The notes beneath the pieces are model-generated. The model did not search any database. It saw nothing but the letters and a program-made list of their open reading frames with translations, and was not told where the DNA came from. A DNA stretch of 64,000 bases from Methylomonas fluvii (lineage in GTDB: Bacteria; Pseudomonadota; Gammaproteobacteria; Methylococcales; Methylomonadaceae), in contig NZ_JACXST010000002.1 of the NCBI RefSeq assembly GCF_014850975.1, positions 62,001 through 126,000 on the forward strand, in the 5' to 3' direction. Every line of letters starts with the position of its first letter. The stretch's first letter is position 1. Below, piece after piece: positions 14,808-64,000 of this stretch. The position numbers and the translations under genes are program-made.

Positions 14808-14870
14808 ACTAAACTTTGCGCTCAAGGTGGCTCTCAGCTTCGCTACGCGCATCTTAGCTCAGTGTTATCG
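14808..14870 (+). other. Putative attC (integron cassette recombination site)
   Basis: 63 bases with attC-like architecture: ACTAAAC (RYYYAAC-like, 6 of 7), TTTGC, GCTCAAGGTG, a loop region with GCTTCGCTACGC, then CATCTTAGC, TCAGT and GTTATCG. The left arm GCTCAAG pairs with CTTAGC leaving one unpaired C, matching the extrahelical base that orients real attC sites. The right core departs from GTTRRRY after GTTA. It sits between the end of the disrupted gene (stop 14780) and the next ORF, which starts 4 bases beyond it, exactly where cassette sites lie. No integrase gene is in the window. Confidence 0.5.
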
Positions 14871-14873
14871 CTT

Positions 14874-15239: not shown

Positions 15240-15437
15240 CAGCTAAAATTTTACGTTTAAGCTTGATATAGTGGGCACGGTTTTGTTTCTAACCAGATTA
15301 GAATTGTAGGAAAACTTGCCTAAACATCTGCTATAGACTCCTAACCGGTCAATCAAAAATTCAAATAGCTGTCCGCTCTTGGCCGAACTCAGCCTATCCC
15401 CTCAGCAACCAGAAATACAGGGCCCTCAAACGCCAGA

Positions 15438-47253: not shown

Positions 47254-48084
47254 TTATTCGTTTTTTTGTGCCACTACCACTAAGGTACCTCCAAAAGGAA
47301 GCGAGACACCGGCTTTAATAAGAGCTTCATCTAATCGCATAAAAATATCAAAAATTATATTTAAGAATACGGGAAACTTAACCCTTTTCTCTAGCTCTAC
47401 TTTATCTGATTTTAGTTGCTTGCATCCTTTATCAAATATTCGAGAAACCAACATCAACGGAAATAGCATAAAAACAAAGGAAGTCGCAAAAATAATGTCA
47501 AACCCATTACTTTTTAGTTTGGTCACCAGCTCTTTCCGGGAATATCTACGCTTGTGTTTGACTATTTCATCAAGCCTGCTCCACAAAAACATATGTTGAG
47601 GAACAGTAATAATCGCACGCCCTCCTGGGCGGAGTAATCGGTTAATATTTGCCATCGCGACAACATCGTCACCAATATGCTCAAGGACATCAAATGCAAT
47701 AATTAAATCAAATTGTTGGCCAAGGTTTCCATTTACAATATCAAATTGAATGAAGTCCACATCAGGAAGTTTATTTTTTGCATACAACAACCCACTAATA
47801 TAAACTTCAGAGCCGGTTATTTCTAGGTTTTCGTTCTCCACAATATGTCGAATAAACCCTCCTGTCCCACAACCAATTTCCAGTAATTTAGTTCGACCCA
47901 CTATAGCTTGATTATAAACAATAGCTTTAAAAAGCCTATTTCTGGAACGAACCCAAAAGCTGCCTTCCTCATTCTCATCGGTCAGCTCGAACCCACTGTC
48001 GGGATAGTCGGCATAGGAACTCATCACTTCTGGGTTAAAGCATTTGACTCCTTCAATTACTGTGTATTTTCCAGCATTGGTCAT
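47254..48084 (-). CDS. Class I SAM-dependent methyltransferase (cluster MT 1)
   Basis: 276 residues. Motif I is TKLLEIGCGTGGFIRHI, followed by DFIQFDIVN, FDLIIAFDVLEHIGDDV (motif II/post-I) and INRLLRPGGRAIITVPQH, as in UbiE/Methyltransf_23-type enzymes. It ends with a membrane-proximal hydrophobic stretch (ATSFVFMLFPLMLVSRIF). Its start overlaps the stop of the GtrB-like gene by 4 bases (ATGA), so it belongs to gtr module 1 and may methylate the sugar or the lipid-linked intermediate. The target is unknown. Confidence 0.87.
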   Translation of the reverse strand: MTNAGKYTVIEGVKCFNPEVMSSYADYPDSGFELTDENEEGSFWVRSRNRLFKAIVYNQAIVGRTKLLEIGCGTGGFIRHIVENENLEITGSEVYISGLLYAKNKLPDVDFIQFDIVNGNLGQQFDLIIAFDVLEHIGDDVVAMANINRLLRPGGRAIITVPQHMFLWSRLDEIVKHKRRYSRKELVTKLKSNGFDIIFATSFVFMLFPLMLVSRIFDKGCKQLKSDKVELEKRVKFPVFLNIIFDIFMRLDEALIKAGVSLPFGGTLVVVAQKNE

Positions 48085-49001
48085 AGAAACTTATCCCTAA
48101 CGACATAGTTCGGTCTTTTTCGTACTTCTTCATTGATCCGCCAAACATACTCCCCGATAACACCTAGCATTACCATGATTAATCCTCCTACCAAAAGGAT
48201 TGCAATCATAATGGGAGCCCAACCCGAAAATGGCGTCTCACCACGCCACCAACTGAAGACAATTGATAGACTATATAGCACTCCAAGCGCTGAGGTTATC
48301 ACGCCAATCAAGGATATAAACCTTATTGGCAGGTATGAAGCATCTAACACACCATCCAAAAAATTTTTAAGCTTTTTGCCGAAGTTATATTGCGATTTAC
48401 CAATAGTCCTCTTCAACCGGATATAAGGAATAAAACTCGTTCTATATCCAGTCCAAAGTAAATCGCCTTGAAAAAACCGATGCCGCACGTCAATTGCGTT
48501 AAATGCATCCATAACTTTTCTATCCATTAAGACGAAATCAAAACCGCCGGGAGGTATTTGCGGCAATGAAATCCTTAAAACGCCATAAGCCAAACGTGAG
48601 AACAATTTTGCAAGCAATGAGTCGGAACGATCTGTACGATAACAAATTACAATTTCAGAACCTTCATGCCATTTATCAACCATCTGCGGAATTAGTTCGA
48701 CAGGGTCTTGCAGATCGGCTGATATATTAATGACCGCATCGCCGGTAGCCTCCTTGAAACCCGCCAACATAGCCGCCATTTGGCCGAAATTTCTGGTAAA
48801 GGTAATAACTTTAACTCGAGTGTCGTGTTTTCTTAAGCTCAACACCTCCTCTAAGGAGCCGTCTTTAGATCCATCGTCCACAAAAACGATTTCGTATTCG
48901 TCGTGAATCAGTTGATTTGAAAAAACTGAATTAATTTTTTCATATGTTTTAACAAGAGCCCCTTCATTATGATAGACAGCAACAACGAATGAAATTTTCA
49001 C
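48081..49001 (-). CDS. GtrB/dolichol-phosphate-mannose-synthase-like GT2 (module 1)
   Basis: 306 residues from the GTG at 49001, which shares its G with the TAG stop of the upstream methyltransferase and has GAGG about 9 bases upstream; an ATG 42 bases earlier would add an off-family leader. ISFVVAVYHNEGALVKTYEK, IVFVDDGSKDGSL and INISADLQDPVELIP form the GT-A site. Two C-terminal membrane helices are typical of enzymes that attach a sugar to undecaprenyl phosphate. With the downstream GtrA-like protein this makes a glycan-modification module. Confidence 0.9.
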   Translation of the reverse strand: MKISFVVAVYHNEGALVKTYEKINSVFSNQLIHDEYEIVFVDDGSKDGSLEEVLSLRKHDTRVKVITFTRNFGQMAAMLAGFKEATGDAVINISADLQDPVELIPQMVDKWHEGSEIVICYRTDRSDSLLAKLFSRLAYGVLRISLPQIPPGGFDFVLMDRKVMDAFNAIDVRHRFFQGDLLWTGYRTSFIPYIRLKRTIGKSQYNFGKKLKNFLDGVLDASYLPIRFISLIGVITSALGVLYSLSIVFSWWRGETPFSGWAPIMIAILLVGGLIMVMLGVIGEYVWRINEEVRKRPNYVVRDKFL

Positions 49002-49747
49002 TATTTTTGGCCTCGTTCGCACAACAAAAAAATACTCGAACATAAATCCGGATACTGTTGACCTAATTTATAACATGCCTCCAAATACTCTTTAGAAATT
49101 ATGTCGGTCTGCAATAGGCGATCCCATTGAAAATTTGCCAGCGCTTTGAAGAAAACCCCAGACCGATGAATCACATTAAGGCCTGCTGCAACAGCATCTC
49201 GCTCCAAGGTATCCAATGTATAAGTGCATTGATGACCGTGTTCGGCTTCTGATTTAGTAACGGCTGTGTTATGCGAAATTAACCCCATTTTTACAGCAAT
49301 CTGTCTCGAAGGTGCATTTGCATTAGGGCATACTAGAAAAAGCCGACCATTATCATCCAACCACTCATAATTGATACGTTTCAATAAAAATACAGGATCA
49401 TCCAAATGTTCCAATACGTGAGTAAGTACAACGTTGTTATAGCGAGAAGGGAGGCTCGCATTCTCAAATAACGAATTAACGAACTTTACACCATTATTCA
49501 ACTTGAGCTTTGCTTCAGATATAGCCAAATCAGAAGCTTCGACACAGGTTACATCATCAAAATACTCATTCAGTCTTCGAGTAAAATCGCCCTTGAAACT
49601 ACCAAGCTCAAGTACACTCCCTGAATTAAAAAAAGGCTCAAACGACCGAATCATAAAAGGATGCATAACATCGATATCGAAGCTATATGCATATTTAGAG
49701 TCGCCAATATCAATCAACTCTCTATTGTAATCTCTCTCGGAATTCAT
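49001..49747 (-). CDS. Class I SAM-dependent methyltransferase (cluster MT 2)
   Basis: 248 residues from the ATG at 49747, 7 bases after the GNAT gene stop; the longer frame would overlap that gene. The SAM motif is GSVLELGSFKGDFTRRL, then VTCVEASDLAISEAK and NNVVLTHVLEHLDDPVFLL, the Methyltransf_23 pattern used for sugar or polyketide-like O/N-methylation. It resembles MT 3 (52673-53392) in overall layout (HVLEHLDDP and a C-terminal YKLGQQYPDLCSSIFLL ending). Its stop overlaps the GtrB-like GTG start by one base. Confidence 0.86.
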   Translation of the reverse strand: MNSERDYNRELIDIGDSKYAYSFDIDVMHPFMIRSFEPFFNSGSVLELGSFKGDFTRRLNEYFDDVTCVEASDLAISEAKLKLNNGVKFVNSLFENASLPSRYNNVVLTHVLEHLDDPVFLLKRINYEWLDDNGRLFLVCPNANAPSRQIAVKMGLISHNTAVTKSEAEHGHQCTYTLDTLERDAVAAGLNVIHRSGVFFKALANFQWDRLLQTDIISKEYLEACYKLGQQYPDLCSSIFLLCERGQK

Positions 49748-49754
49748 AATACAT

Positions 49755-50315
49755 TTATTCCCAATAATTAGTTTTTTCCAAGAGATCGCGGTAATCTTTC
49801 GAAGTGATACCAACTAATACCTGATCCCAATAACGACCTTTTCGAAAGAAATAATTTCTCCTACGCCCTTCTTCTATCCAGCCCAATCTCTTTCCGCAAT
49901 ATGTAGCAATAGAAAGCTTATTGTATTCAATCATTGATCCATCCAATCGTTCTAAATTGAGCTCATCGAAAGAGTAACGCATTGTAGCCATGATCGCGTC
50001 GATAGCATAACCTTTACCACGATAGCTGGATTCTCCAATAACAAGGCCATGCCAGGCATGTCTATTACGCCAATCGATATTAACAATACTGGAAATCCCT
50101 ATAATCCCAATTTCTGGCACATCAACAACGAAACGCTGATTCAGCCTATCACTTTTTAAATTATGGAACCATGCTTCATGGAAATCTAATGAACTTGGAA
50201 AGTGAATTTCGCCGATTCCATCCTGTGTAACAGGATCATTGGCCCATTTCTGAAGCAATTCCAGATCACTCTCTTCTATGGCCCTTAAGGTCAAATGTTT
50301 TCCTTTTATGTTCAA
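49755..50315 (-). CDS. GNAT-family N-acetyltransferase (RimJ/RimL-like)
   Basis: 186 residues. LTLRAIEESDLELLQKWAND opens the fold, and the acyl-CoA-binding loop is GESSYRGKGYAIDAIMATMRY (R-x-x-G-x-A like). NLERLDGSMIEYNKLSIATYCGKRLGW is the conserved C-terminal part of sugar-acting members such as those acylating 4-aminosugars. In this cluster, with a VioA-like aminotransferase, it is a candidate N-acyltransferase for the aminosugar. This role is inferred; protein N-terminal acetylation is the alternative. Confidence 0.85.
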   Translation of the reverse strand: MNIKGKHLTLRAIEESDLELLQKWANDPVTQDGIGEIHFPSSLDFHEAWFHNLKSDRLNQRFVVDVPEIGIIGISSIVNIDWRNRHAWHGLVIGESSYRGKGYAIDAIMATMRYSFDELNLERLDGSMIEYNKLSIATYCGKRLGWIEEGRRRNYFFRKGRYWDQVLVGITSKDYRDLLEKTNYWE

Positions 50316-50415
50316 TTAATTCACCACAGAACGGTATTATTGACAACAGTAAAAAACAAATATTAATTACGCTAAATATCGATTTCCCATCTACCCAGCA
50401 TAAACTAATATAATA

Positions 50416-51366
50416 TTAGCTCTCATACCTAGCCACACCAAACCCGAAACGACCGAAGTCGTTACCGTTATACAACATATAAATATTACCATCCATTTCG
50501 AAAACATGGGGATAGCATAGCATATCCGAATCCCAACCACCTTTTGTCACGTCAATTCCAACATTGTCATCATCCCTAATCCAATTAACCAAATCAGTTG
50601 AATATGCATACCCTATTCTATATGCTCTGCTTGTATTGGTTCTAAAATCAGTGGCGTGCCGATAACAAAAAAACATGTGGTATTTATTGTCAAAATGAAT
50701 AACAGATGGGAGAGCTTGACACTCGTCAAGTAATTTATCTTCTACTAACTGCCTACCCTCTTTACGCCACGAAACTCCGTCTTTAGATGTAGCATGTGCA
50801 ATTTTATATACACGATCAGGCTCCTTCGCCGACGTCCCTCTAACCCATTTTGTACCATGGATATACCACATATGAAAAGTATCGCCATAAGTAGTAACAA
50901 AAGCGTCACCAACTAAAAAAGGCTCATGTAAAGAAGAGGTTAGTACAGGACCTTGTCCAATTTTTTTAAACGTCACACCGTCATCAGTGCTTATAGCCAA
51001 CCCAATAGATGCGTCCGTCGATACGGATACTTTTCTATTCCAGCCGGTCGTATATCCCAATACTTTATCCTTAACCCTAAAAACGTTCATAGGGAAAATT
51101 CCGTGCTCATCAAAGCAGCCCAAACCACCTAGTTCAATTACCGTCGAACTCGATACTGCTATAATTTTCTCAAAATATTTATCCATATCAACAAAAGAAA
51201 TATGACTCAAATATTTACCATGCCTATCAATTTCTCTTGTTGAAAAATAAATTCTAATATAATTATCAAAGACCAAGGCTTGAGGAGATTGAGCAAACTC
51301 GAAACAATTATTAGATAAAGAATGCTCCCTTGGATCGAATATTTTTCCTAATTTTTTCCATTTCAT
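50416..51366 (-). CDS. GH43/32-like five-bladed beta-propeller protein, copy 2
   Basis: 316 residues. Repeated propeller-blade motifs with W and acidic residues: IRIYFSTREIDRHGKYLSH, GLAISTDDGVTFKKIGQGPV, KIAHATSKDGVSWRKEGRQ, HMFFCYRHATDF, RIGYAYSTDLVNWIRDDDN and YPHVFEMDGNIYMLYNGND, the latter close to the glycosidase/arabinanase family F. It has no signal peptide, so it is cytoplasmic. It may be a glycosidase, a phosphorylase (GH130-like) or a sugar-binding protein. It is clearly homologous to the neighbour at 51386-52348. Confidence 0.75.
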   Translation of the reverse strand: MKWKKLGKIFDPREHSLSNNCFEFAQSPQALVFDNYIRIYFSTREIDRHGKYLSHISFVDMDKYFEKIIAVSSSTVIELGGLGCFDEHGIFPMNVFRVKDKVLGYTTGWNRKVSVSTDASIGLAISTDDGVTFKKIGQGPVLTSSLHEPFLVGDAFVTTYGDTFHMWYIHGTKWVRGTSAKEPDRVYKIAHATSKDGVSWRKEGRQLVEDKLLDECQALPSVIHFDNKYHMFFCYRHATDFRTNTSRAYRIGYAYSTDLVNWIRDDDNVGIDVTKGGWDSDMLCYPHVFEMDGNIYMLYNGNDFGRFGFGVARYES

Positions 51367-51385
51367 AAGTACAATATAATAAGAA

Positions 51386-52348
51386 TCAAGTCAATCTTCC
51401 TTCTAGCTGTGCCAACCCAAAACCATATCTGCCTACCTGATTTCCAAGATATAACATGTATATCTCCCCATCAAGCTCAAACACGTGAGGATAAGCGATT
51501 GATTGATCATCCCAGCCCTCTTCAGAAATATCAATACCTGCTTTACTGTCATCTCTATGCCAATTTACCATATCAGTTGAAACAGCATAGCCAATGCGAT
51601 ATCCTCTATCGTTTTTTCTAAAATCCAAGCTATATTTATAGCAAAAAAACATATGATATTTATTATTGTAGAAAAATACATCCGGACTAGCTTGACACTC
51701 ATTCTCATCTAATTTACTTTCAATAATATTTCTACTATCTCTTACCCATTCAAATCCATCATCTGAGTGTGCCATACGAATTTTATATACCGCTTCCGGA
51801 CTGCCATCATTCTCTAGCCAACTAGTTCCTGCCACATACCATAAATACCATCTATTGCTAAATCTTCTAATTTTAGGGCCGCTTAAAACAAAAGGATCAT
51901 TAACATTGCAAGATAGAACCGGTCCTTTACCAGCCTTTGTGAAAGTCTCGCCGTCGTCGTAACTGATTGCTGCGCCTATCGCAACCGTAAAAGGAATAGA
52001 CTCACATCTTGTCCAACCACCGTAATAGGCAAAAACGCTACTATTGTGTCTAATCACTGATACGGGATAAGTACCGAATTCATCAAAAGTACCTAAATCC
52101 CCTAATTCCAGAATGGGCGATTTAGATACATTTAAAATTTCAAATAAATCATGTCTATTCAAGTCTACGTAGGCTGAATAACTAATATATTGCCCACGCT
52201 CATCGGGCAGCGGCCTGCAGGAGAAATACACTCTAACAAATTCATCAAAAACCAATACAGAAGGCGCTTGAGCAAACTCTTTTAGCCAACTTTTACCTTC
52301 AATTTCTTGAGGTTTAAAAACTAGACCAAGCTTTTTCCATTTAAACAA
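51386..52348 (-). CDS. GH43/32-like five-bladed beta-propeller protein, copy 1
   Basis: 320 residues, about the same length and domain plan as the gene that follows 19 bases downstream. Shared blocks include the KKLG opening, FAQ-P-LVF, YFS-R, GPVL and C-NDPF, WHRDDSKAGID and YPHVFELDGEIYMLYLGN. No signal peptide. It is a tandem duplicate. Whether both copies are catalytic cannot be told. Similar propellers occur in some O-antigen loci, where the substrate is unknown. Confidence 0.75.
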   Translation of the reverse strand: MFKWKKLGLVFKPQEIEGKSWLKEFAQAPSVLVFDEFVRVYFSCRPLPDERGQYISYSAYVDLNRHDLFEILNVSKSPILELGDLGTFDEFGTYPVSVIRHNSSVFAYYGGWTRCESIPFTVAIGAAISYDDGETFTKAGKGPVLSCNVNDPFVLSGPKIRRFSNRWYLWYVAGTSWLENDGSPEAVYKIRMAHSDDGFEWVRDSRNIIESKLDENECQASPDVFFYNNKYHMFFCYKYSLDFRKNDRGYRIGYAVSTDMVNWHRDDSKAGIDISEEGWDDQSIAYPHVFELDGEIYMLYLGNQVGRYGFGLAQLEGRLT

Positions 52349-52672
52349 AATGAGCCACCTAAGGGTTAATTAAGACTAGAACGAGCCCGCACATATATAT
52401 CAAAAATCAAAAGTCTATATATGCGTCGGTGAGAAGATTGGGATGAGGTTGTTTAATAGTACACCCTACACCCAGCCCATGAACGGCTAACATAAGCAGC
52501 TCAGGGCCTGCACGGCGTACTATGATAGGATTTCTCATTAATCCTTCGGAAGAATATGCCCCCATGGGGCATAAATACAAACACCCAATACTTAATTTAA
52601 CGGGATTCCAATCAATGGACAAAGGATTCTTTGGGATTCCCTATAGTTTATCTATTTGCATGTCTAAAAACT
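52349..52672. other. Non-coding stretch inside the polysaccharide cluster
   Basis: 324 bases between MT 3 and the propeller genes. A 71-codon minus-strand frame (52407-52622) is open, but it lacks a ribosome site, and its translation (for example EGLMRNPIIVRRAGPELL) fits no family known to me. It might be a relic of a lost gene or a promoter region for the propeller genes. Confidence 0.45.
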
Positions 52673-53392
52673 CTAATAATACTTCTTAGTTGCTACAACT
52701 AAGAGACTAGCACAATACTCAGGAATATCTTCTCCCAAAGAATAAAATGCACGCACAGCGTCGTCACCTAATTCAATCATCTGTTTTTCCGAAAGCGGCT
52801 TAAGATACATCCCTTTAACAGATAGCACTTTTAAACCTGCTTTATCACAGTGATCTTTCAACATATCCACGGTGTATAAACGTCTATGCCCAACTTCATA
52901 ATCTTTTGGCGCCATTTTTTCATAATTTTCCAGAACACCCATTTTATATCCCGCACGCCTATTTAAAGACATACAATTTGGAGCTGAAATAAAAATTAGC
53001 CCTTCATGTCTAATTAAATCAGCAAGTATTTTGAGAGACTGAACTGGATCTTCAACATGTTCAATGACATTTAAAAAAAATATAAAATCAAATCGTCGGG
53101 TAGTAGAGAACTCTTCTAAAAGCAATTCATGGCATTTTATATTTGAAACCCTATTTTTTAACAACGCCACATTTTTTTTCGAAGGCTCGATTACTTCTAT
53201 ATCTTGAAAGATTTTATATAATTTTTCAGTGGAAGAACCACTACCGCAACCTACTTCTAAAGCGCTTTTACCTTCGGCACTATATCGCTTAATGATTTCA
53301 ATCTCACGATCTATCATAAGCTCATCCATATAGTCACCTTTTTCATAGAAAGCACTAATAGTCTCTAGGTGCGCTATTTCTTTGTTACTCAT
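52673..53392 (-). CDS. Class I SAM-dependent methyltransferase (cluster MT 3)
   Basis: 239 residues from the ATG at 53392, which has GGAGGG 5 bases upstream. SAM motif SALEVGCGSGSSTEKL is followed by IEVIEPSKKNVALLK and FDFIFFLNVIEHVEDPVQSL, with FISAPNCMSLNR after. It resembles MT 2 in order of motifs and in the C-terminal DYEVGHRRLYTVDML and SLGEDIPEYCASLL segments. This suggests two related methyltransferases acting on similar substrates in the same glycan. Confidence 0.86.
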   Translation of the reverse strand: MSNKEIAHLETISAFYEKGDYMDELMIDREIEIIKRYSAEGKSALEVGCGSGSSTEKLYKIFQDIEVIEPSKKNVALLKNRVSNIKCHELLLEEFSTTRRFDFIFFLNVIEHVEDPVQSLKILADLIRHEGLIFISAPNCMSLNRRAGYKMGVLENYEKMAPKDYEVGHRRLYTVDMLKDHCDKAGLKVLSVKGMYLKPLSEKQMIELGDDAVRAFYSLGEDIPEYCASLLVVATKKYY

Positions 53393-53457
53393 CAAACCCT
53401 CCAATTAGGATTTCAATAGGCTATATGATATTTTTAGCACCATTTTTAGCAAAAAAG

Positions 53458-54312
53458 TTAAATCTTTTTACGGTAAGAATAAAATCCAATCCCTGTTTTT
53501 TTTCCAAGCTTACCTGCGCGAACGTACCTTTTTAACAAAATAGCAGGCCTATATTTTACATCACCGGTCTCTTCCATAAGTGTTTCCAATATACTCAAAC
53601 AAATATCCAAACCTATCAAATCTGCAAGCTCCAACGGCCCCATTGGGTGGTTAGCTCCAAGCCGCATGCAATTATCAATAGTTTTGGCATCCGAAATACC
53701 TTCCGACAATAGAAACACAGCCTCGTTAATCATCGGAAAAAGCAACCGATTAACAATAAAGCCAGGGGTTTCAGGGATAACTACAGGATGTTTGTTAATT
53801 TTATCTAATACATTTAAAGCAAACTCCAAAGCCGCATCAGAAGTCAATTCACCCTTTATTACCTCAATCAATTTCATCGACATAGGTGGATTAAAAAAAT
53901 GAATCCCTAAAAACCGACTTGGGTTTTCAGTAAAAGATGCAAGCTCCGTGATACTTAACATCGAAGTATTAGTTGCCAGCACTTTGGCTTGCCTAGCAAT
54001 AGCATCTATCTGCCTTAAAACTATAGCCTTAACTTCCTTGTCTTCCTTTATAGCTTCAACAATAAAGTCGCAACCCTCCATAACGGTTATATCATTTGCA
54101 TAACTTATGTGCTCTATAACTTTTTTTATATTTTCTTTATTAAAAAATCCAAGTTTTGATTGAATTGTTGCCAATCTAAAAATGTCATTTTCATAACTTG
54201 GCTGCTCCTTATGATTCCAGATTATCGTAGCAATATCATGGGACGCAAAAAGTATTGCAAGTTGCATCCCCATATTTCCAGCACCAGCAATGCCAACAAC
54301 ATGATTTTGCAT
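53458..54312 (-). CDS. 3-hydroxyacyl-CoA dehydrogenase family protein (3-hydroxybutyryl-CoA dehydrogenase-like)
   Basis: 284 residues, the length of Hbd-type enzymes. NAD-binding VGIAGAGNMGMQLAILFASHD at the N-terminus, GCDFIVEAIKEDKEVK, catalytic region GIHFFNPPMSMKLIEV (His), and FIVNRLLFPMINEAVFLL plus NHPMGPLELADLIGLD at the C-terminal dimer domain. It would interconvert acetoacetyl-CoA and 3-hydroxybutyryl-CoA. Placed in the cluster beside an aminosugar gene, it may supply a 3-hydroxyacyl group for sugar N-acylation (inference). It ends the gene set coupled to wbqC. Confidence 0.9.
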   Translation of the reverse strand: MQNHVVGIAGAGNMGMQLAILFASHDIATIIWNHKEQPSYENDIFRLATIQSKLGFFNKENIKKVIEHISYANDITVMEGCDFIVEAIKEDKEVKAIVLRQIDAIARQAKVLATNTSMLSITELASFTENPSRFLGIHFFNPPMSMKLIEVIKGELTSDAALEFALNVLDKINKHPVVIPETPGFIVNRLLFPMINEAVFLLSEGISDAKTIDNCMRLGANHPMGPLELADLIGLDICLSILETLMEETGDVKYRPAILLKRYVRAGKLGKKTGIGFYSYRKKI

Positions 54313-55020
54313 TCACGATACCTCTATCAAATCATATTCAAAATTCAAGCATTCTTTGATTAAATCAGTAGAATTGAACATTAATACATCAATAATAGAT
54401 AACCAAGGCACAAACACGGAACCGAATTGTTTGTATTCGAATGGCTTCGACTGAATGAATTTCAAATCAACGCCTCTTAGACGGAATATATATTTTGAAT
54501 ATAATTCAATTCCACCTATAGCATTTATGTACGTCTTCGCTCCGATATAATCGCACAACGCGAGAACTTTTTCCTGACTCTTAAGTGAATGATCAATGTC
54601 TATTTCGGATGATATTCTGATTTCAGTACTAACACCCAAATAGGCGCAGGTTTTGACAATAGAGTTGTGTAGGAAGCGAAATAAGTTTTCATCCTTAAAC
54701 GACACTATATGCTCTACCAAGTGAAGTGTTTCGGAAAAATATGGCGCTCCTCGATAGGCTTCGCTGAGTTGATTTAGAAATTTGAGGCGATTAAAATCCG
54801 CCGCCACTTCTCGCTGGCAAATATCAAGAGTATCCGAATCGGATTTCAAAGGCAGTGTAAGCATAACATCTCTGCCGTTCTGCAAAATCCGGTTACGATT
54901 AATCCACCCCTTCTTTGTGTATTTTATATTATCGTAGACGATGAATACATCAACAGCGCTAATCAACTGAAAATACCCAATATACGGAAAGAAATAGGGT
55001 TGCATAATTGCGGCCCTCAT
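54313..55020 (-). CDS. WbqC-family protein
   Basis: 235 residues. The conserved opening AAIMQPYFFPYIGYFQLISAVD and YDNIKYTKKGWINRNRIL, followed by LPLKSDSDTLDICQREV, are the WbqC-like family signature. The family is common in O-antigen clusters containing 4-amino-4,6-dideoxyhexose genes. Its reaction is not settled; it has been proposed to act in acylation of the aminosugar. Its stop abuts the Hbd-like gene start with no gap, and it follows the VioA-like gene by 43 bases. Confidence 0.88.
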   Translation of the reverse strand: MRAAIMQPYFFPYIGYFQLISAVDVFIVYDNIKYTKKGWINRNRILQNGRDVMLTLPLKSDSDTLDICQREVAADFNRLKFLNQLSEAYRGAPYFSETLHLVEHIVSFKDENLFRFLHNSIVKTCAYLGVSTEIRISSEIDIDHSLKSQEKVLALCDYIGAKTYINAIGGIELYSKYIFRLRGVDLKFIQSKPFEYKQFGSVFVPWLSIIDVLMFNSTDLIKECLNFEYDLIEVS

Positions 55021-56442: not shown

Positions 56443-57096
56443 TCACGATCTATGGTATTCAACGATTAGCAAGCTTGAAAACATCCACATGAATAGCGCT
56501 ACTAAATAAACTGTCCCATAATCGATAGATACAATATCAAATGACTTTGATGCGGGAGCCACGATTTCTGTTGGCTTCATACTCAAAATGATCAATTTTA
56601 GCTGGGAAATTGATTCAACTGCCTGACTATTGCATTCCTTCTTATCTAAAATTTTCTCCCAATAAAGTATTTCATTTTTGACACTATTGAGTTCTTTGTT
56701 CAATTTTTGCTGCTGATAATCGACAATTTTCTGACCTAAAGCCGAAACTAAGCGCTCAGCATCGTCAACAGAATCCCAATGGACTAGTATCTTTATTGCT
56801 TTATTATTATCGATAGGATGCGTCCTAATTCTTTTTGAGAGCTTATTAGGAGATACGTTATTAGCAGTCGCCACCGCAATTAAGGTTTCTGAGTTACGTA
56901 AATATTCGATGGACTCCGCCGCACCAGCAATGGGCGTATTGCTATCAAATTGGCCTAACTTAATTATAATTTGTGCCTCATATTTAATAGGCATTACTTC
57001 CAGTAAAATAAAAGCCATTAAAACCCAGAAAAGGAGATTTAAACCTATATATTTCTTATTTTTTATCAGCGCATCAACTAGGCTTTTAAATGTCAT
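56443..57096 (-). CDS. Wzz-like polysaccharide chain-length determinant protein
   Basis: 217 residues from the ATG at 57096 (AAGGA 8 bases upstream). Two terminal membrane helices (about 18-37 and 192-211) flank a periplasmic, charged helical domain (KYEAQIIIKLGQF, then AERLVSALGQKIVDYQQQKLNKELNSVKNEILYWEKIL). This is the PCP/Wzz layout, but shorter than typical Wzz (about 320), lacking most of the long extended helix. No kinase domain. It overlaps the upstream GT-C-like gene by 4 bases (ATGA). Confidence 0.72.
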   Translation of the reverse strand: MTFKSLVDALIKNKKYIGLNLLFWVLMAFILLEVMPIKYEAQIIIKLGQFDSNTPIAGAAESIEYLRNSETLIAVATANNVSPNKLSKRIRTHPIDNNKAIKILVHWDSVDDAERLVSALGQKIVDYQQQKLNKELNSVKNEILYWEKILDKKECNSQAVESISQLKLIILSMKPTEIVAPASKSFDIVSIDYGTVYLVALFMWMFSSLLIVEYHRS

Positions 57097-58346
57097 GAAA
57101 ATTTCCTTAAAGATATTAAAACCGGGTAACTCATGATTATCAACATGAAGAACAGGCAAAATGGACGAATATATGCACCAAATGTCAACCCGGTTGATAC
57201 ATCCACGTAATGCTGCGAAAGAAAACTAAATTGATTGAACTCAATTATCGGACCAACCACAAAATCCAGAGGAATCAACAGCACAAACATGATTGCCCTT
57301 CTATATTTATTAGCATATCTTCCAATTAAAATTGCACTTAAATATGGCAGTAACAAAATAACTGCATACCCCCCTGGAGAATCAGTAGCTACCATCATAC
57401 AAAGCAAAACAACTACGCTTAATTGCTCCCAAGTGAAAAAGTGAGCTTTTCGCGCTGATAAAAATAAAATATACGCCGCAACAAAAAGAACAAACCACCT
57501 TAAAAAATGCGTAGCCAAATAGAGGATTACCGGAATCCTGTCCTGATAGTAAAAGACAGCTTTCGACCAGGAGCTAAGCGAAGTTGTATACCAAACTTTT
57601 TGGAAAAAATCCGAATTAACAGCGCCAGAAAAAGAAAACATATTTTCGAAAATTTGCCTATAGTTTCCATCTTCTAACACAAGCATACTTATTTGATTAA
57701 TCAATAATGATGCAAAAAAACTCATCAAAAAGTATGTATATTCCCTTTTAAAAAACGGCACAAACCAGAGCACTATCAAATACTGCTTAATATTTATAGC
57801 CAACGCGAGAAATACCGCGCCTTTCCAATTGACGCCAAAAGCCTGAGAAAAAGCCAACAACATAAAAGCAACTATAATATAGTTCCCTCTTTCTAACGCA
57901 TAAAGCCCGGGAAATTGCATCAACAACGCGAGAAATATAATTATCTCAACCGAAATATATTTTATCCTCACCTGCTTTACGATTAGTTTTGTACATAAAA
58001 AAATTGCACAAAAATAAAATAAAAATAGCCAAGCGATAGAATATGGCGCGCAATCTCGTAACTCTGCAGGCAAAACAACGGAAGCACAATAATCCGGCAC
58101 TAACATTTGCGCCAATGCAAATACACTTATCGGATAAATTGATTGCCATATATCATAACGCCCATCATTCAGACTCCAATAATTTGTATTATAGAAGTCC
58201 ATAAATGTATCTAAAGGCGCAAAGAAAAACGGCGGTATTGCATAACCGCTGGATTCAAAATACTTGACAAAAAAGATCAGAAAAATTAGCTCTGAACAGA
58301 TTATCCAGACGAACCACCAATCAATATCTTTATTTTTTAAACACAC
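57093..58346 (-). CDS. GT-C-type multi-pass membrane protein (GT87/DUF2029-like)
   Basis: 417 residues with about 10 membrane helices. The acidic loop (about 45-62: FAPLDTFMDFYNTNYWSLNDGRYDIW) after helix 1 and the ALERGNYIIVAFMLLAF segment are typical of GT87/DUF2029 polyprenyl-phosphate-sugar transferases. GTG start at 58346, 50 bases downstream of gtrA module 2. In this position it is the likely GtrC-like enzyme that transfers the flipped sugar to the glycan in the periplasm. Donor sugar is unknown. Confidence 0.72.
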   Translation of the reverse strand: MCLKNKDIDWWFVWIICSELIFLIFFVKYFESSGYAIPPFFFAPLDTFMDFYNTNYWSLNDGRYDIWQSIYPISVFALAQMLVPDYCASVVLPAELRDCAPYSIAWLFLFYFCAIFLCTKLIVKQVRIKYISVEIIIFLALLMQFPGLYALERGNYIIVAFMLLAFSQAFGVNWKGAVFLALAINIKQYLIVLWFVPFFKREYTYFLMSFFASLLINQISMLVLEDGNYRQIFENMFSFSGAVNSDFFQKVWYTTSLSSWSKAVFYYQDRIPVILYLATHFLRWFVLFVAAYILFLSARKAHFFTWEQLSVVVLLCMMVATDSPGGYAVILLLPYLSAILIGRYANKYRRAIMFVLLIPLDFVVGPIIEFNQFSFLSQHYVDVSTGLTFGAYIRPFCLFFMLIIMSYPVLISLRKFS

Positions 58347-58396: not shown

Positions 58397-58822
58397 TTAA
58401 GATAACTTACTTTGCACACTATTCTTTTTAAAAGAAAATCGGCGATGCAAGATATAACTGCTTATCACAGTAATGGATACTATAATTGCTTGAGCAATCA
58501 ATGTATGTAGATTAAGTCTCTCGACCAAAAGAGGTAATGCTATTAAATTAAAACCAAAAGCACCAAGGTACACCATATTAAACCTAAAAAATTCTTTCAA
58601 CCACCGTCCTTTCACGCGAAACACATAAATCCTATAACCCAAATATGCATTAATCACCGATACAAAATGACTTATTATTAAAAGCCCCACATAATGTAAA
58701 TCATGGTGTAGAAAAAACCAAATAACTGCAAAAAAACCATACCCAAAAGCGGTATTATACAAACCTACAAATAAATAACGAATCTTTTCGTTACCCCAAA
58801 AACGTTTAGTTATTGAACCCAA
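58397..58822 (-). CDS. GtrA-family membrane protein (module 2)
   Basis: 141 residues, four membrane helices. IRYLFVGLYNTAFGYGFFAVI, SVINAYLGYRIYVFRV and FFRFNMVYLGAFGFNLIALPL follow the GtrA pattern. Its start overlaps the end of the GtrB-like gene by 17 bases, so they are translated together. It is thought to flip an undecaprenyl-phosphate-linked sugar. It is followed by a GT87-like membrane protein, which completes a gtrABC-like set. Confidence 0.92.
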   Translation of the reverse strand: MGSITKRFWGNEKIRYLFVGLYNTAFGYGFFAVIWFFLHHDLHYVGLLIISHFVSVINAYLGYRIYVFRVKGRWLKEFFRFNMVYLGAFGFNLIALPLLVERLNLHTLIAQAIIVSITVISSYILHRRFSFKKNSVQSKLS

Positions 58823-59747
58823 CTTGCTTTCTCACGATAAAATTAGGGCGATTCTTCACTTCCTCGTATATCAAACCAATATATTCTGCAACAATACCCA
58901 ACATAGTAAATAATATTCCGAACATCAAAAACATAACAGTCATAATGGTTCCATATCCAGCAAACGGCACACCCCAGAATATTGCTTTTACTATTGTCCA
59001 CACTAACAGGATAAAAGACGCCACAGATATGGTTATCCCCAATATAGTAATAAGCTTTAAAGGCACATAAGAATGGGCCAATATGCCTTTTAACGCCAGT
59101 TCGATAACCTTGAAAGTATGCGCCCCAGACACCCCGGCAAAGCGTTCCGCACGTTCGTGTTCGACGCCAATGGATTTGTAACCAACCCAGGCAAATAGTC
59201 CACGGATGAAGCGATTGCGCTCATGTATGGAATTGATGGTTTCGTAAACTTTTCTATCGATCAGCCTGAAGTCGCTAACATTTCTGGGGACCATGCCGTT
59301 GGTCAAACCATTCGCAACCCAATAAAATAATTGCGAGTTAAAACGGCGAATCAGGCCTGTACCATTACGTTTGGTAACGATGCCGTACACATTTTCATAT
59401 CCCTCTTCCCATTTTTTGATGAATTGGGTTATTAAATGCGGCGGATCTTGCAAATCGGCGGTCATAATCACAGCAGCATCGCCAGACGCATAATTCAGGC
59501 CGGCGGTAATGCCACCATCCATTCTAAAATTACGCGCTAGTTGCACAATTTTAAACCGCGGATCTTTCTCATGTACCGCGCAGAGCTTTTCGTAGGTATT
59601 ATCTTGAGAACCATTCTCTACGATAATAGCTTCAAAATCGTAAGCGCTATTTTCCGCAAATACCGCTGTTAATTGTTTAGCCAATTCATCAACATTGTCC
59701 TGCTCGTTATAGGCAGGAATAACCACGGAAATTAATTTTTTATTCAT
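58806..59747 (-). CDS. GtrB-like bactoprenol glucosyltransferase-type GT2 (module 2)
   Basis: 313 residues. SVVIPAYNEQDNVDELAKQL, AIIVENGSQDNTYEKL and AVIMTADLQDPPHLITQF are the GT-A/DXD-like motifs of the DPM1/GtrB group. Then RNFRMDGGITAGLNYASGD and the C-terminal two membrane helices (about 228-250 and 262-287). It transfers a sugar from a nucleotide sugar to undecaprenyl phosphate. It overlaps gtrA module 2 and lies 11 bases downstream of the YerE-like gene, so it is transcribed with the 3,6-dideoxyhexose genes. Confidence 0.93.
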   Translation of the reverse strand: MNKKLISVVIPAYNEQDNVDELAKQLTAVFAENSAYDFEAIIVENGSQDNTYEKLCAVHEKDPRFKIVQLARNFRMDGGITAGLNYASGDAAVIMTADLQDPPHLITQFIKKWEEGYENVYGIVTKRNGTGLIRRFNSQLFYWVANGLTNGMVPRNVSDFRLIDRKVYETINSIHERNRFIRGLFAWVGYKSIGVEHERAERFAGVSGAHTFKVIELALKGILAHSYVPLKLITILGITISVASFILLVWTIVKAIFWGVPFAGYGTIMTVMFLMFGILFTMLGIVAEYIGLIYEEVKNRPNFIVRKQVGFNN

Positions 59748-59758: not shown

Positions 59759-61540
59759 CTATTGCAAATATTGCGCTACTACGGCATACAGATTCTCATC
59801 CAAATCCGGAGTCATTTGGTGCAAAGGATTTGATTGCATAGAACCTGTTTCCGTTACCCTACTGGTAATTTTGGGAAAATAGGTTTGTTCCGGATCTATC
59901 GGCACGACAAACCCAGCAGGTTCATCGCTTGCGAATAGGCGTTGGAATTCCGGGTCTTGCTCGAAATTAGCATGGAGTTTGATACAAGGCAAATTAAAGG
60001 CTTTAAATAAAGTTAGCCAATCCGGTAAACCCAATCCCGAGGACTGGTCGCAACCAATATAGGCGCCATTAAAATAATTTCGTTGCGTCATCCGAATAGA
60101 GGCATAGCCATTATCGTTAAATATAAAAATTTTCAGATTTAACTTATTAACAGCAACCGTACCCAACTCCTGTAAATTTTGGGCAAATCCGCCATCGCCT
60201 TCGACTAGAACGGTCCTGCGCTGCGGATAGGCGAAAGCCGCGCCTATTGCTCCGCTCAATCCGTACCCCATGGATGCCAAGCCCTTGTTGGTAACGATGT
60301 GTTGGCCGCGCTGTTGAGCGAAGGTTTGCATCATCACGGTAAAGGCGCCACCGCTACTGCAGGGAATGACGTTATCAGTGTCTCGGCAGTGTACCGACAA
60401 ACGGCTGACAAAATCGTAAGGCGATACATAATTCTCTGCCGTGTTATTGATCGGCTCGATCAACAGCAATTCGGCTTTCACTTTTTGGCAATAAGCCATC
60501 CATTCGGAATGATCGCCAAGGCTGGCTGCCGCTAATGCTTGTAATACTTGATTGGCATCGCCTTGCAAACCGCAATCGACGCGGGGATGGCCTTTATTAA
60601 GTTCGGTAGGGTCGCATTCCACTTGCACCACTCTGCCCTTAGGTACGAACTCCTGCCAGTTAAACCCGGTTTGTTGCAGACCCAAACGAGTTCCCAGTGC
60701 GACCAGCAAATCGGCTTGTTGCATCAACAAGTTGCTGTAACGTTGTCCCCAGGTATTCGGACGACCAAAATACAAGGGATGATCTGCCGCCACCCTGTCC
60801 GCACCATTCCATGTGGTTGCCAATGGAATACCCATGGGCTCCAAAGCCTCGTATATCTTTTCTACCGTCTGCCTGGCAACACCGGCTCCAATCAATAAAA
60901 ACGGCCGTTTTGCCGTGCGAACATCCTCGATTAGACGTTGGATTTCGGCTGAATCTATAGGTGGAATTGCTTGTTTTGCGGCTGGGGCAACTTCGCATAG
61001 TGGATCGTTTACATCGACTGGCGCACCTTGAATATCCAACGGAATTTCAAGAAACACCGGACCTTTGCGGCCTGTAACCCCGGCGTCGATAATCCGGTTA
61101 AATGCCTCACAGGAAATCAAGCTATCCATCAGCACCGATTTTGAGGTGATCGGCTTGACGATATCGACACCATCAATCTCTTGAATGCCGCGCTGGCGTA
61201 CTTGTTGCCGACAAAGATCGGCAGTCTTTACTTGCCCGCCAATCACCAACAATTCCCGGCTCTCCAAATAAGCACCCGCCACTGCGGTGACAATATTGGT
61301 TAAGCCGGGACCGGCGGTTACCAAAGCAAAGGCTTTGCCGTCGGCACTTATTTCATTGAAATATTCCGCTGCAATGCCTGCCGCCACCTCATGCACCACG
61401 CTAACGCATTTGAAATGACGATTCACGCTGGCGAGAATGTGCATGATATTGCCGCCCGCCACGTAAAAGCAGTGGGTATATCCTCTTTCCTTTAACCAAT
61501 CGGCCAATAGATCGCTATATTTTATGGTCTTGTTTTGCAT
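59759..61540 (-). CDS. Thiamine-diphosphate enzyme, YerE/acetolactate-synthase-like
   Basis: 593 residues with the three-domain ThDP fold: Pyr domain (DLLADWLKERGYTHCFYVAGG, catalytic Glu in VVHEVAAGIAAEYF), a central domain (about 190-330), and the PP domain with the cofactor motif VEGDGGFAQNL ending in NDNGYASI. It is homologous to acetolactate synthase, but in this operon (after ddhB, ddhC) the best match is YerE, which decarboxylates pyruvate and adds the two-carbon unit to CDP-3,6-dideoxy-4-ketohexose in yersiniose synthesis. It starts 15 bases downstream of the ddhC stop. Confidence 0.75.
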   Translation of the reverse strand: MQNKTIKYSDLLADWLKERGYTHCFYVAGGNIMHILASVNRHFKCVSVVHEVAAGIAAEYFNEISADGKAFALVTAGPGLTNIVTAVAGAYLESRELLVIGGQVKTADLCRQQVRQRGIQEIDGVDIVKPITSKSVLMDSLISCEAFNRIIDAGVTGRKGPVFLEIPLDIQGAPVDVNDPLCEVAPAAKQAIPPIDSAEIQRLIEDVRTAKRPFLLIGAGVARQTVEKIYEALEPMGIPLATTWNGADRVAADHPLYFGRPNTWGQRYSNLLMQQADLLVALGTRLGLQQTGFNWQEFVPKGRVVQVECDPTELNKGHPRVDCGLQGDANQVLQALAAASLGDHSEWMAYCQKVKAELLLIEPINNTAENYVSPYDFVSRLSVHCRDTDNVIPCSSGGAFTVMMQTFAQQRGQHIVTNKGLASMGYGLSGAIGAAFAYPQRRTVLVEGDGGFAQNLQELGTVAVNKLNLKIFIFNDNGYASIRMTQRNYFNGAYIGCDQSSGLGLPDWLTLFKAFNLPCIKLHANFEQDPEFQRLFASDEPAGFVVPIDPEQTYFPKITSRVTETGSMQSNPLHQMTPDLDENLYAVVAQYLQ

Positions 61541-61555
61541 TGCTTGTTTGCCAGC

Positions 61556-62869
61556 TTATTGACGGATACCAAAAAAAATTTCTATTTTTTCGGCAACGAA
61601 TTCCAGCATCTCTGTGGTCAAGGCCGGATAAATACCGATCCAAAAAGTTTGCCGCATAATTCTATCGGTTACATCCAGCGAGCCGGAAATTCGGTATTGC
61701 CTGCCTTTCATATACGGTTGCCGGGTTAAATTTCCGGCGAACAGCAGACGGGACCCGATTTTGTATTGATCCAGGTACTTCAACAATTCCACGCGTTCAT
61801 GGCCCGAATCCTCCTTCAGCGTGATTGGAAACCCAAACCATGAGGGATCCGATCCCGGTGTCGCTTCCGGCAGAATTAAATACTGCTCGCAAGTGGCCAA
61901 ACGTTGCTTCAAGAATTTAAAATTACGCTTTCTGATTTCAATCAATTCCGGCGCACGCTCTAACTGCGCTAAGCCGCAGGCCGCCTGCATATCGGTAATT
62001 TTTAAGTTATAACCCAAGTGCGAATAGGTGTACTTATGGTCGTAACCGGCCGGCAAATCGCCTAACTGCCAACCAAATCTCTTTTTACAGGTGTTATCCA
62101 CACCGGGAGCGCAATAACAATCTCTTCCCCAATCCCGAAACGACTCGATGATAGTTTTCAGGCGACGACTACTGGTAAATACTGCACCGCCCTCGCCCAT
62201 CGTAATGTGGTGAGCCGGGTAGAAACTAAGCGTACCAATATCCCCAAAAGTGCCGACATTGCGGCCCTTGTAGGTTGTGCCTAAGGCATCGCAGCAATCT
62301 TCTATCAGCCAAAGATTGTATCTTTTTGCAATTTCGACCACTTGATCCAGGTCAAACGGGTTGCCCAGCGTGTGGGCGATCATGATTGCCTTGGTTTTAG
62401 GCGTAATAGCCGCTTCGATTTTACTGGGATCGATGTTATAGGTTGGTATTTCCACATCGACAAATACCGGGACAAGGTCGTAAAGCAGAATGGGATTCAC
62501 TGTTGTGGGAAAACCAGCCGCTACGGAAATGACTTCGTCGCCTTTTTGCAAGGCCCGGTCTCCCAGTTTTTCGGATGTCAAACAGGCAAAAGCCAGCAGA
62601 TTCGCAGAGGAACCGGAATTGACCGTCAACGCGCTGCTAACGCCAATAAACTCGGCCAATTGCTTTTCAAACTGGTCGTTAAATCGTCCGGTAGTCAACC
62701 AACCGTCTAGCGACGCTTCGACCATATAACTAAGTTCTTTGGCCCCGAGAATTTTACCCGACGGCGGCACTACGGACTGTTCCGGAACGAAAGCTTTTTC
62801 GGCATAACGTTCGGCGGCGTATTGTTCAACCAAATCCAAAATCTGCGCTTTTAATGTATTTTCTGTCAC
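61556..62869 (-). CDS. ddhC: CDP-4-keto-6-deoxyglucose 3-dehydrase (E1)
   Basis: 437 residues, the usual E1 (RfbH) length. It is a PMP- and [2Fe-2S]-dependent enzyme that removes the 3-hydroxyl on the way to 3,6-dideoxyhexoses. It belongs to the DegT fold but the PLP lysine is replaced by His, seen in [18 protein letters not shown], the hallmark of this dehydrase. Cysteines in [20 protein letters not shown] can supply the iron-sulfur cluster. It follows ddhB by 25 bases. The reductase partner (ddhD) is not in the window. Confidence 0.95.
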
Positions 62870-62894
62870 TGTCTTATCTTTGTGTTCAATAAAA

Positions 62895-63977
62895 TTAATG
62901 TTGATCAGCTGTCAAAAACTGCTCTAACTGCTCCGCGCAGACTTGCTGCATATCCTTGCCTTGTTGATAGGCCAGGTTCCAGTCGACAATCATCGCCAAC
63001 GCTTGGGCCAGAGTCCAACGCGGCACCCAACCCAGAAGGGTCTTGGCTTTGGAGCAATCAAGCTTCAAATAGTGCGCTTCATGCGGCTGCTCACTAGCAT
63101 CGATTTGCCAACTTGCGCCATTGCCCCATAAATCCGCCAGTTTTTCCAATATCCACGATACGGGTTGCGCATCGGCTTCGCTGGGCCCGAAATTCCAACC
63201 CTCCGCGTATCGACTACCTTTTTTGTATAGTTGTTCGGCTAACAGGACATAACCGGTCACCGGCTCCAGTACATGCTGCCAAGGCCTGATGGCTGTCGGG
63301 TTACGAATCGTCACAGCCTCCCCTGCCATGAACGCTTTCATGATGTCTGGAATTAAGCGATCCTGAGCCCAATCCCCGCCGCCAATCACATTGCCGGCAC
63401 GCACCGACGCCACCGCCACCCCGTGCTCAGCGTAGCGTTCGCTGGGAAAAAACGAATTACGATAGCTGGCAGTTACCAGTTCCGAACAGCCTTTGCTATT
63501 GCTGTAAGGATCGAAGCCACCCATCGGCTCATTTTCCCGGTAGCCCCACAACCACTCCTTGTTTTCATAGCATTTGTCGCTGGTGACTATCACAACTGAC
63601 TTTACCGACGCGGTGTGCCTGACAGCCTCCAGTAAATTAACCGTACCCATCACATTGGTGGCGTAGGTTTCCACCGGCTGTTGATAGGAATAACGAACAA
63701 GCGGTTGCGCGGCCAAATGAAACACAAACTCAGGTTGAAAGCTTTGCATTTCCGCCATCACGCTGGTTAAATCCCGAATATCGCCTTCAACGTGCTGCAG
63801 TACCGAAGCAATACCGGCCACTTGGAACAAACTGGGTGTGGTCGGCGCCGGTAACGCATACCCTTTGATCTCCGCACCTAACCGATGCAGATATAACGCC
63901 AACCAACCGCCTTTAAATCCCGTATGCCCGGTTATAAAAACCCGTTTGCCTCGCCAAAAATCGCTATGTTCTACCAT
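62895..63977 (-). CDS. ddhB: CDP-glucose 4,6-dehydratase
   Basis: 360 residues. Short-chain dehydrogenase fold with NAD motif [20 protein letters not shown], the conserved [13 protein letters not shown], and the [11 protein letters not shown] segment with Tyr and Lys of the catalytic site. It converts CDP-glucose to CDP-4-keto-6-deoxyglucose, the substrate of ddhC. The ATG at 63977 overlaps the ddhA stop by 7 bases; a GTG 9 bases earlier is also in frame. Length matches RfbG. Confidence 0.95.
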
Positions 63978-64000
63978 ATCTTCCACGGTGCTTTTTGCTG
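63971..64000 (-). CDS. ddhA: Glucose-1-phosphate cytidylyltransferase, last codons only
   Basis: The window's right edge holds nine sense codons and a TAG stop reading QQKAPWKIW. This is the typical end of RfbF/DdhA (GKAPWKVW), the enzyme that makes CDP-glucose for DdhB, and it sits exactly where ddhA precedes ddhB in 3,6-dideoxyhexose operons. The rest lies outside the window. Confidence 0.75.
   Translation of the reverse strand, partial: QQKAPWKIW

Follow-up and report, generated by a model that had tools for sequence, protein, structure and literature searches.

A Methylomonas operon that probably makes a caryophyllose-type branched sugar, and its relatives in other bacteria

Which sugar is made by the genes at the right-hand end of the 64,000-nt stretch of Methylomonas fluvii DNA analyzed here (contig C2, positions 62001-126000, of genome G000, 5.59 Mb in size; hereafter, the window)? 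The window ends within an operon in which ddhA, ddhB, and ddhC are followed by a gene for a YerE-like thiamine diphosphate (ThDP) enzyme, a combination that an earlier, sequence-only reading took to be the core of CDP-yersiniose synthesis. We found that the operon also contains genes for an HpcH/HpaI-like aldolase, a short-chain dehydrogenase/reductase (SDR), and a protein resembling 3-dehydroquinate synthase (DHQS), and that the same set recurs in a lipooligosaccharide (LOS) locus of genome G541, which is best read, in part from its gene content, as Mycobacterium marinum-type. We put the probability at roughly 0.7 that the operon makes a sugar of the caryophyllose type, a CDP-activated 3,6-dideoxyhexose whose C4 carries a long, open-chain branch, for use in a surface polysaccharide. 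A caryophyllose-type sugar is the likely product; that it is caryophyllose itself is uncertain.

Genes of the operon and placement of the ThDP enzyme

Every gene reported for the operon lies on the (−) strand, and genes beyond the window end were given extrapolated window coordinates by adding 55000 to their positions in L002. Read from upstream to downstream, the genes considered here are as follows.

L002:12538-13341, (−) strand, HpcH/HpaI-like aldolase gene; outside the window, upstream of ddhA
L002:11832-12536, start uncertain, (−) strand, SDR gene; outside the window, upstream of ddhA
L002:10772-11848, (−) strand, DHQS-like gene; outside the window, upstream of ddhA
L002:9771-10772 (extrapolated 64771-65772), (−) strand, epimerase-family gene; outside the window, upstream of ddhA
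63971-64738 (L002:8971-9738), (−) strand, ddhA, glucose-1-phosphate cytidylyltransferase (TIGR02623)
62895..64000 (window end), (−) strand, ddhB, CDP-glucose 4,6-dehydratase (TIGR02622)
61556..62869, (−) strand, ddhC/rfbH, CDP-4-keto-6-deoxyglucose 3-dehydratase (E1), 437 aa (NCBIfam RfbH equivalog)
59759..61540, (−) strand, YerE-like ThDP enzyme, 593 aa, with three TPP_enzyme Pfam domains
58806..59747, (−) strand, GtrB/ArnC-like GT2 glycosyltransferase (GT2 Pfam; weak likeness to undecaprenyl-phosphate transferase models)
58397..58822, (−) strand, GtrA-like membrane protein (PF04138), candidate flippase partner; 17-base overlap with the GT2 gene
57093..58346, (−) strand, GT87-type membrane glycosyltransferase, weakly assigned (PF09594, 26.7 bits; cut-off, 25); may be a third component

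Only the final 30 bases of ddhA (63971..64000) lie inside the window, and the 5′ end of ddhB, given a TTG start, falls 7 bases beyond it. The full order of transcription is rmlB, rmlD, rmlA, rmlC (these four named by eye), aldolase, SDR, DHQS-like, epimerase-family, ddhA, ddhB, ddhC, ThDP, GT2, GtrA, and GT87-like. A single transcription unit is plausible because the 15 intergenic gaps from rmlB through the gene at 56443-57159 measure only −67 to +95 bases; the following gap is 269 bases.

The three ddh genes are present and intact. Specifically, the ddhC product scored 748 bits against the RfbH equivalog (cut-off, 423), the ddhB product 505 bits against TIGR02622 (cut-off, 278), and the ddhA product 474 bits against TIGR02623 (cut-off, 300). 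The ddhC product carries His220, C193, and a C-x-C-x7-C motif at 251/253/261; we take His220 to stand in the place of the pyridoxal phosphate lysine and, together with cysteines 193, 251, 253, and 261, to correspond to positions of the Yersinia E1 enzyme. The NCBIfam scores and His220 bear out the sequence-only reading, which had named a ddhA tail, ddhB, and ddhC with the diagnostic His. It had also pointed to the DNA right of the window for ddhA, ddhD, and a yerF-type reductase: the whole of ddhA is found there, ddhD is not linked, and the epimerase-family gene just outside the window is, by its family, a candidate for the yerF role.

The ThDP protein matched 54 NCBIfam families, with a top score of 269.6 bits among the 25 listed. 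An ordinary acetolactate synthase might be read from these matches, which include acetolactate-synthase models with E-values down to 4e-80, yet the acetolactate-synthase models among the 25 have cut-offs of at least 509 bits, and the protein scored under half of each. Its closest solved structures were 8rph, followed by 5ahk (presumably PpYerE), with acetolactate synthases behind; identity to 8rph was 30% across 591 residues. The aligned sequence of 8rph carries the CDG motif, which a passage of PMC12247030 gives as unique to JanthE, and for this reason we take 8rph to be JanthE. A quick 70-row tree grouped the window enzyme with 8rph and 62 other module enzymes (Shimodaira-Hasegawa-like approximate likelihood ratio test [SH-aLRT], 99), while the acetohydroxyacid synthase AHAS I of E. 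coli and the genome's own synthase-like L131 were set apart (SH-aLRT, 100). Firm support for the YerE-type grouping comes from 8rph only, 5ahk being on a long branch: it paired with the long row L099, and L132 paired with the long row L075, placements that are unreliable. Inspection by eye showed no small regulatory subunit among the neighboring open reading frames (ORFs), and the genome holds a separate synthase-like ThDP gene (L131) and a third ThDP gene (L132). It is therefore highly improbable that the enzyme is an acetolactate synthase. The sequence-only reading had proposed a YerE-like enzyme for a branched CDP-3,6-dideoxyhexose and had named phylogeny and a nearby small subunit as the points to check; a YerE-like enzyme that branches such a sugar at C4 gains support from the likeness to 8rph and 5ahk and from the tree. 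We propose that the enzyme would decarboxylate a long 2-keto acid and add the acyl unit to C4 of CDP-4-keto-3,6-dideoxyhexose.

Proposed donor genes, their conservation, and a mycobacterial counterpart

Next, we consider the G541 LOS locus, in which one strand carries the genes for an FGGY kinase, DHQS-like protein, SDR, aldolase, ThDP enzyme, GT2, and ddhA, and the other strand ddhC, ddhB, and GtrA. These are followed, to judge by eye from size and sequence, by genes for a membrane protein, a methyltransferase, a polyketide synthase (PKS), FadD, MmpL, a PapA-like protein, and a second PKS. Passages of two papers identify fadD25 as mmar_2341 (PMC12395582) and papA4 as MMAR_2343 (PMC5706390). 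Counting back from fadD25/papA4 in G541, which assumes consecutive numbers and no small gene missed, gave MMAR_2333 for the GT2 gene, MMAR_2332 for the ThDP gene, and MMAR_2331 for the aldolase gene. A glycosyltransferase adding caryophyllose is reportedly the subject of the title of Sarkar et al. In the relevant passages, MMAR_2333 is the gene cited to those authors (PMC5706390), and MMAR_2332 is described as a YerE-like enzyme (PMC12247030), both in agreement with the genes reached by counting. Mutants in MMAR_2331, 2332, and 2333 accumulate LOS-II*, a precursor lacking the terminal caryophyllose, according to a passage of PMC5706390, and in part of PMC13354803 the LOS genes of five M. marinum strains are not reported to differ in number or synteny. 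The aldolase was found in 10 of 396 genomes of Mycobacterium, the genus of G301 (by L084), and G541 is one of the 10.

The structure of M. marinum caryophyllose, given in the same part of PMC5706390 as 3,6-dideoxy-4-C-[D-altro-1,3,4,5-tetrahydroxyhexyl]-D-xylo-hexopyranose, has an open branch of six carbons, in which C2′ is CH2 and C6′ is CH3, implying that the ThDP donor would be a 3,7-dideoxyheptulosonate, the compound that the route proposed below would make. We infer that C4′ and C5′ are D-erythro, as in erythrose 4-phosphate, and that C3′ is unlike that of 3-deoxy-D-arabino-heptulosonate 7-phosphate (DAHP), which would explain a dedicated aldolase.

These features suggest a route in which ddhA, ddhB, and ddhC, together with an unlinked reductase, would provide CDP-4-keto-3,6-dideoxyglucose. 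The aldolase would couple pyruvate with an aldehyde phosphate, for which D-erythrose 4-phosphate is the likeliest candidate, to give a 3-deoxyheptulosonate 7-phosphate; the DHQS-like enzyme would then perform the oxidation and phosphate elimination of DHQS but form no ring, leaving a methyl ketone that the SDR would reduce to give a 3,7-dideoxyheptulosonate. The order of the aldolase step and the DHQS-like/SDR step could be swapped. The YerE-like enzyme would decarboxylate the 2-keto acid and attach the six-carbon unit at C4, the epimerase-family protein, likely the branch ketoreductase, would reduce the branch ketone, and the GT2 protein at 58806-59747 would transfer the sugar to a lipid carrier. 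The ThDP step in the biosynthesis of caryophyllose-like long branches is already known; no published route to the ThDP donor of long-branched sugars was found in the literature searched, although parts may be in print, for instance in a 2024 survey of >200 YerE-like clusters cited in PMC12247030. The genes offer a complete, testable route, and they connect the aldolase, SDR, and DHQS-like protein with a sugar already known and with mutants described in the literature.

The aldolase is at best a divergent member of the HpcH/HpaI family, scoring 23.3 bits against PF03328, below the cut-off of 25. Its predicted structure (predicted local distance difference test [pLDDT], 94.9; from 39 sequences) had HpaI 4b5w as its top Foldseek match, and in VIA-align pyruvate kinases ranked equal to HpaI, giving no separation; HpaI and pyruvate kinase belong to one barrel superfamily, so equal structural scores are expected. 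E113 and D143, presumably the metal ligands by motif, are invariant in the 39 sequences. No aldolase match was obtained in phages at 1e-10, and in plasmids there were three records: two from Novosphingobium humi at 55%, of which the one inspected is a stretch without annotation, and one from Ilyobacter, a distant paralogue in a different context.

Next, we asked how widely these genes travel together. Of the 301 genomes that represent the order, 15, counting G000, encode DHQS-like relatives at an E-value of 1e-40 or better, with several weaker ones resembling AroB. The operon recurs in the same order in five other genomes of the genus, which argues that it is not a product of chance. In two of these five (L026 and L027), there is an extra gene among the rml genes, GtrA is only 38% identical, the genes after GtrA differ, and no GT87-type gene was found next to GtrA; L028, L029, and L030 show reordered forms of the operon. 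Scanning the species-genome collection with the aldolase alignment returned at least 365 stretches with relatives, of which we analyzed the best 80, assigning their genes by BLAST against the window genes and a few others, an approach blind to unrelated replacements. By record title, some possibly wrong (e.g., two Bifidobacterium breve), these 80 loci span seven phyla, one locus being unlabelled, and the DHQS-like gene occurs in five. Strict counts were restricted to the 44 loci flanked by at least 8 kb in each direction, leaving out 36 with <8 kb on either side; among the 44, the ThDP gene was found in 41, the epimerase-family gene in 42, ddhA in 34, and ddhB and ddhC in 35 each.

This conservation bears on whether the product is yersiniose, or another two-carbon-branched sugar made from pyruvate, with the aldolase, SDR, and DHQS-like protein serving a different residue. 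The branch of yersiniose requires pyruvate only; because the operon nevertheless adds these three genes, a longer branch is expected. The presence of ddhA, ddhB, ddhC, and a YerE-like enzyme favors yersiniose, as does the two-carbon branch being the first characterized product of the family (in part of PMC12247030). However, an aldolase that accompanies the ThDP gene in 41 of the 44 well-flanked loci, under many different gene arrangements, would be hard to explain if the two were unrelated; the same set also sits in the M. marinum-type LOS locus, and the M. marinum sugar has a six-carbon branch. A two-carbon branch is thus quite unlikely. Of the CDP-yersiniose core envisaged by the sequence-only reading, the ddhA/B/C and YerE-like components stand, whereas the conserved donor genes argue for a longer branch than that of yersiniose.

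The GT2 protein at 58806-59747 is likely the transferase that moves the branched sugar to a polyprenyl carrier, to judge by its relatives: it is 61% identical to the MMAR_2333 counterpart beside the G541 ThDP gene, and relatives at ≥45% identity occur in 27 of the best 80 aldolase loci. The abequosyltransferase-like GT2 at 40948-41979, previously suggested for this role, was rejected, as its relatives reach at most 46% and occur in only 7 of the 80.

As for ddhD, none was seen by eye among the ORFs of the window flanks. A PF00970 search of the whole genome gave three matches, all on other contigs (C1, C1, and C3): an MmoC-like, an NqrF-like, and an unassigned reductase (L006), the last of which could act as an unlinked electron supplier. 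The sequence-only reading had counted the absence of ddhD against itself. The gene is indeed unlinked, but the L053 and L006 reductases as queries likewise revealed no ddhD-type reductase in the 100 kb around the G541 LOS locus, and only 1 of the best 80 aldolase loci has one (L053, where it heads the operon). The absence of a linked ddhD therefore does not refute the proposed pathway.

Two observations concern the surroundings of the operon. Near the aldolase of the Mycobacterium-group genome G593 (L145) lie counterparts, at 44-56% identity, of the genes at window positions 48081-55020 (WbqC, a methyltransferase, two GH32/130-like proteins, and a GT2), a hint that Methylomonas and mycobacteria share surface-glycan genes more widely. 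Past the upstream end of the operon, translations judged by eye indicate a TIR-like nucleotide-binding protein, a transposase, and a cytosine-5 DNA methyltransferase-like gene (L003:1392-2339, 5537-6883, and 14476-15420).

The DHQS-like protein and its exchange with a phosphatase

The DHQS-like protein contains both DHQS Pfam domains and scored 245.6 bits against the AroB equivalog, below the cut-off of 305. Its nearest NCBIfam model is TIGR04425, an AroB-related phospholyase (cut-off, 400 bits), against which the operon protein scored 273, that of the M. marinum-type locus 311, and that of L034, the only one above the cut-off, 414. Among 16 AroB positions, whose choice as catalytic is our assumption, 15 are intact in the operon protein. 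The nine module enzymes aligned each deviate at only one or two of the 16, and none has the Glu of the HGE motif, which is replaced by Ile, Leu, Val, or Gln.

The DHQS reaction itself ends in ring closure at the substrate's keto group. Ring closure on the keto acid is not expected here because the ThDP enzyme requires a 2-keto acid. This acid appears to survive the sub-module, since a CMP-ulosonate-transferase-like gene adjoins it in L034, and the branch ketone appears to survive as well, since all 27 well-flanked cyclase loci retain an epimerase-family gene. An enol not spent on ring closure would become a methyl ketone that the SDR could reduce, for a net terminal deoxygenation. In L034 (1406-4710), genes for an SDR, a DHQS-like protein, and an aldolase lie without nearby ddh genes and adjoin one for a PseF/KdsB CMP-transferase-like protein (59 bits; cut-off, 206), so that this sub-module possibly yields a CMP-activated deoxy-ulosonic acid.

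Alternatively, the enzyme might close a carbocycle before or after coupling, giving a carbocyclic branch or a fused ring, in the way of caryose or bradyrhizose. The 15 intact AroB positions favor this, as does the word "cyclizing" in the name of the nearest NCBIfam model, and Bradyrhizobium canariense (L087) carries the set, with ddhC not detected. Ring-bearing O-antigen sugars do exist, as passages on bradyrhizose illustrate (PMC4743980 and PMC9912281), the first of which describes its genes as unknown and a cluster of 11 genes with a glucose 4,6-dehydratase as proposed. However, closure would consume either the 2-keto acid required by the ThDP enzyme and by the L034 CMP-transferase-like protein, or the branch ketone meant for the epimerase-family protein; in addition, caryophyllose is open-chain despite the cyclase in the M. 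marinum-type locus, and the HGE Glu is missing throughout the module enzymes aligned. We consider ring closure unlikely and retain the open, caryophyllose-type branch.

The DHQS-like gene also appears to trade places with a HAD phosphatase gene, counted where the match exceeded 100 bits and lay within 4 kb. The 44 well-flanked loci comprise 27 with the DHQS-like gene, 9 with HAD, none with both, and 8 with neither (Fisher p 3.4e-5); for the best 80, the numbers are 46, 12, 0, and 22 (Fisher p 9e-6). An SDR accompanies the DHQS-like gene in all 27 of the well-flanked cyclase loci. This mutual exclusion is most simply explained if one and the same phosphate is lost in either route, whether by hydrolysis (leaving CH2OH) or by DHQS-type elimination. 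On the ThDP tree (51 rows), the state switches at least five times, a count that omits 14 of 65 module rows (those with neither cyclase nor HAD, L033, and L075 and L099, for which a different ThDP gene had been selected); because this selection of rows itself makes the two traits complementary, the sign test (p 0.0625) adds nothing beyond the number of switches. The exchange occupies a single slot in Mycobacterium, where L084 and L094 have aldolase, SDR, DHQS-like, and FGGY kinase genes and L095 has a HAD gene in place of the last three.

Other loci vary around this pattern. After aldolase/HAD, the HAD-type loci L067, L073, L083, and L111 carry, by eye and in the same order, radical-SAM-like and epimerase-like genes plus two more, which is a second conserved sub-module. 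The sphingomonad loci L109, L110, and L113 have aldolase, ThDP, and epimerase-family genes, with no ddh, cyclase, or HAD gene detected nearby. In L126, of the Mycobacterium group, neither a cyclase nor a HAD match was found; IS3-like transposase ORFs (10395-11600, by eye) come right after its aldolase, where SDR/cyclase or HAD would be expected.

Part of the sugar phosphate cyclase family may stop at the methyl ketone and act with an SDR as a terminal deoxygenase (CH2-O-phosphate to CH3), forming with the aldolase a portable module that is swapped against a phosphatase and sets a methyl- or hydroxyl-ended chain in at least five to seven phyla. We regard this broader proposal as evenly balanced. 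A non-cyclizing DHQS-like enzyme, if true, would add a new outcome to a classic mechanism, and the family label would need correction. As the module is widespread, sugars of this type may occur in many unanalyzed polysaccharides, and chiral tertiary alcohols could be built with the aldolase, phospholyase, and ThDP set as a toolkit.

Besides the name of the closest model, for which both the operon and M. marinum-type proteins fall under the cut-off, and the 15 intact AroB positions, several points weigh against our interpretation. The operon has no linked ddhD, and L006, the one unassigned reductase of that layout in the genome, scored below every NCBIfam cut-off and hit no model named ddhD. 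The identity of G541 with M. marinum is itself a deduction, and the MMAR numbers depend on counting. Eight of the nine sequences behind the HAD profile come from the very loci counted, and kinship is not considered in Fisher's test; 8 of the 44 loci have neither gene. The short contig L033 (781-8243), without an aldolase, has DHQS-like, FGGY kinase, HAD, epimerase-family, and ThDP genes in one row, the only locus seen with a cyclase and an adjacent HAD gene together, and L054 has a weak, uncounted 34-bit HAD match beside its cyclase, 6 kb from the aldolase. Finally, the DHQS-like proteins of the window operon and G541 share 37% identity over 257 residues and their SDRs 28%, so that the chemistry could differ, and the FGGY kinase of the mycobacterial locus has no counterpart in the window operon.

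Comparison with known systems

The yersiniose operon of Yersinia pseudotuberculosis consists of ddhABCD, yerE, and yerF. The window operon resembles it in ddhA, ddhB, ddhC, and the YerE-like ThDP enzyme but has no linked ddhD and contains the extra aldolase, SDR, and DHQS-like genes, and its ThDP enzyme scores higher against 8rph than against 5ahk. AroB and the other sugar phosphate cyclases share both DHQS domains and 15 of 16 AroB positions with the operon protein, which differs in falling under the AroB cut-off, in having the HGE Glu replaced, and in its proposed failure to close a ring. ErwE, MMAR_2332, MygE, and JanthE, listed in a passage of PMC12247030 as YerE-like ThDP lyases with longer donors, belong to the same family as the window enzyme and use 2-keto acid donors, as is proposed for the window enzyme, with ketone acceptors demonstrated for some of them.

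The M. marinum LOS locus (MMAR_2328-2337 by counting) shares with the window operon ddhA/B/C, the GtrB-like GT2, the YerE-like ThDP enzyme, the aldolase, the SDR, the DHQS-like protein, GtrA, and, within the region, an epimerase-family gene. Identities between the window operon and G541 are 61% for the GT2, 56% each for the aldolase and ddhC, 54.6% for the ThDP enzyme, 51% for ddhA, and 44% for ddhB. The mycobacterial locus serves a lipooligosaccharide, whereas the window operon has rmlBDAC directly upstream.

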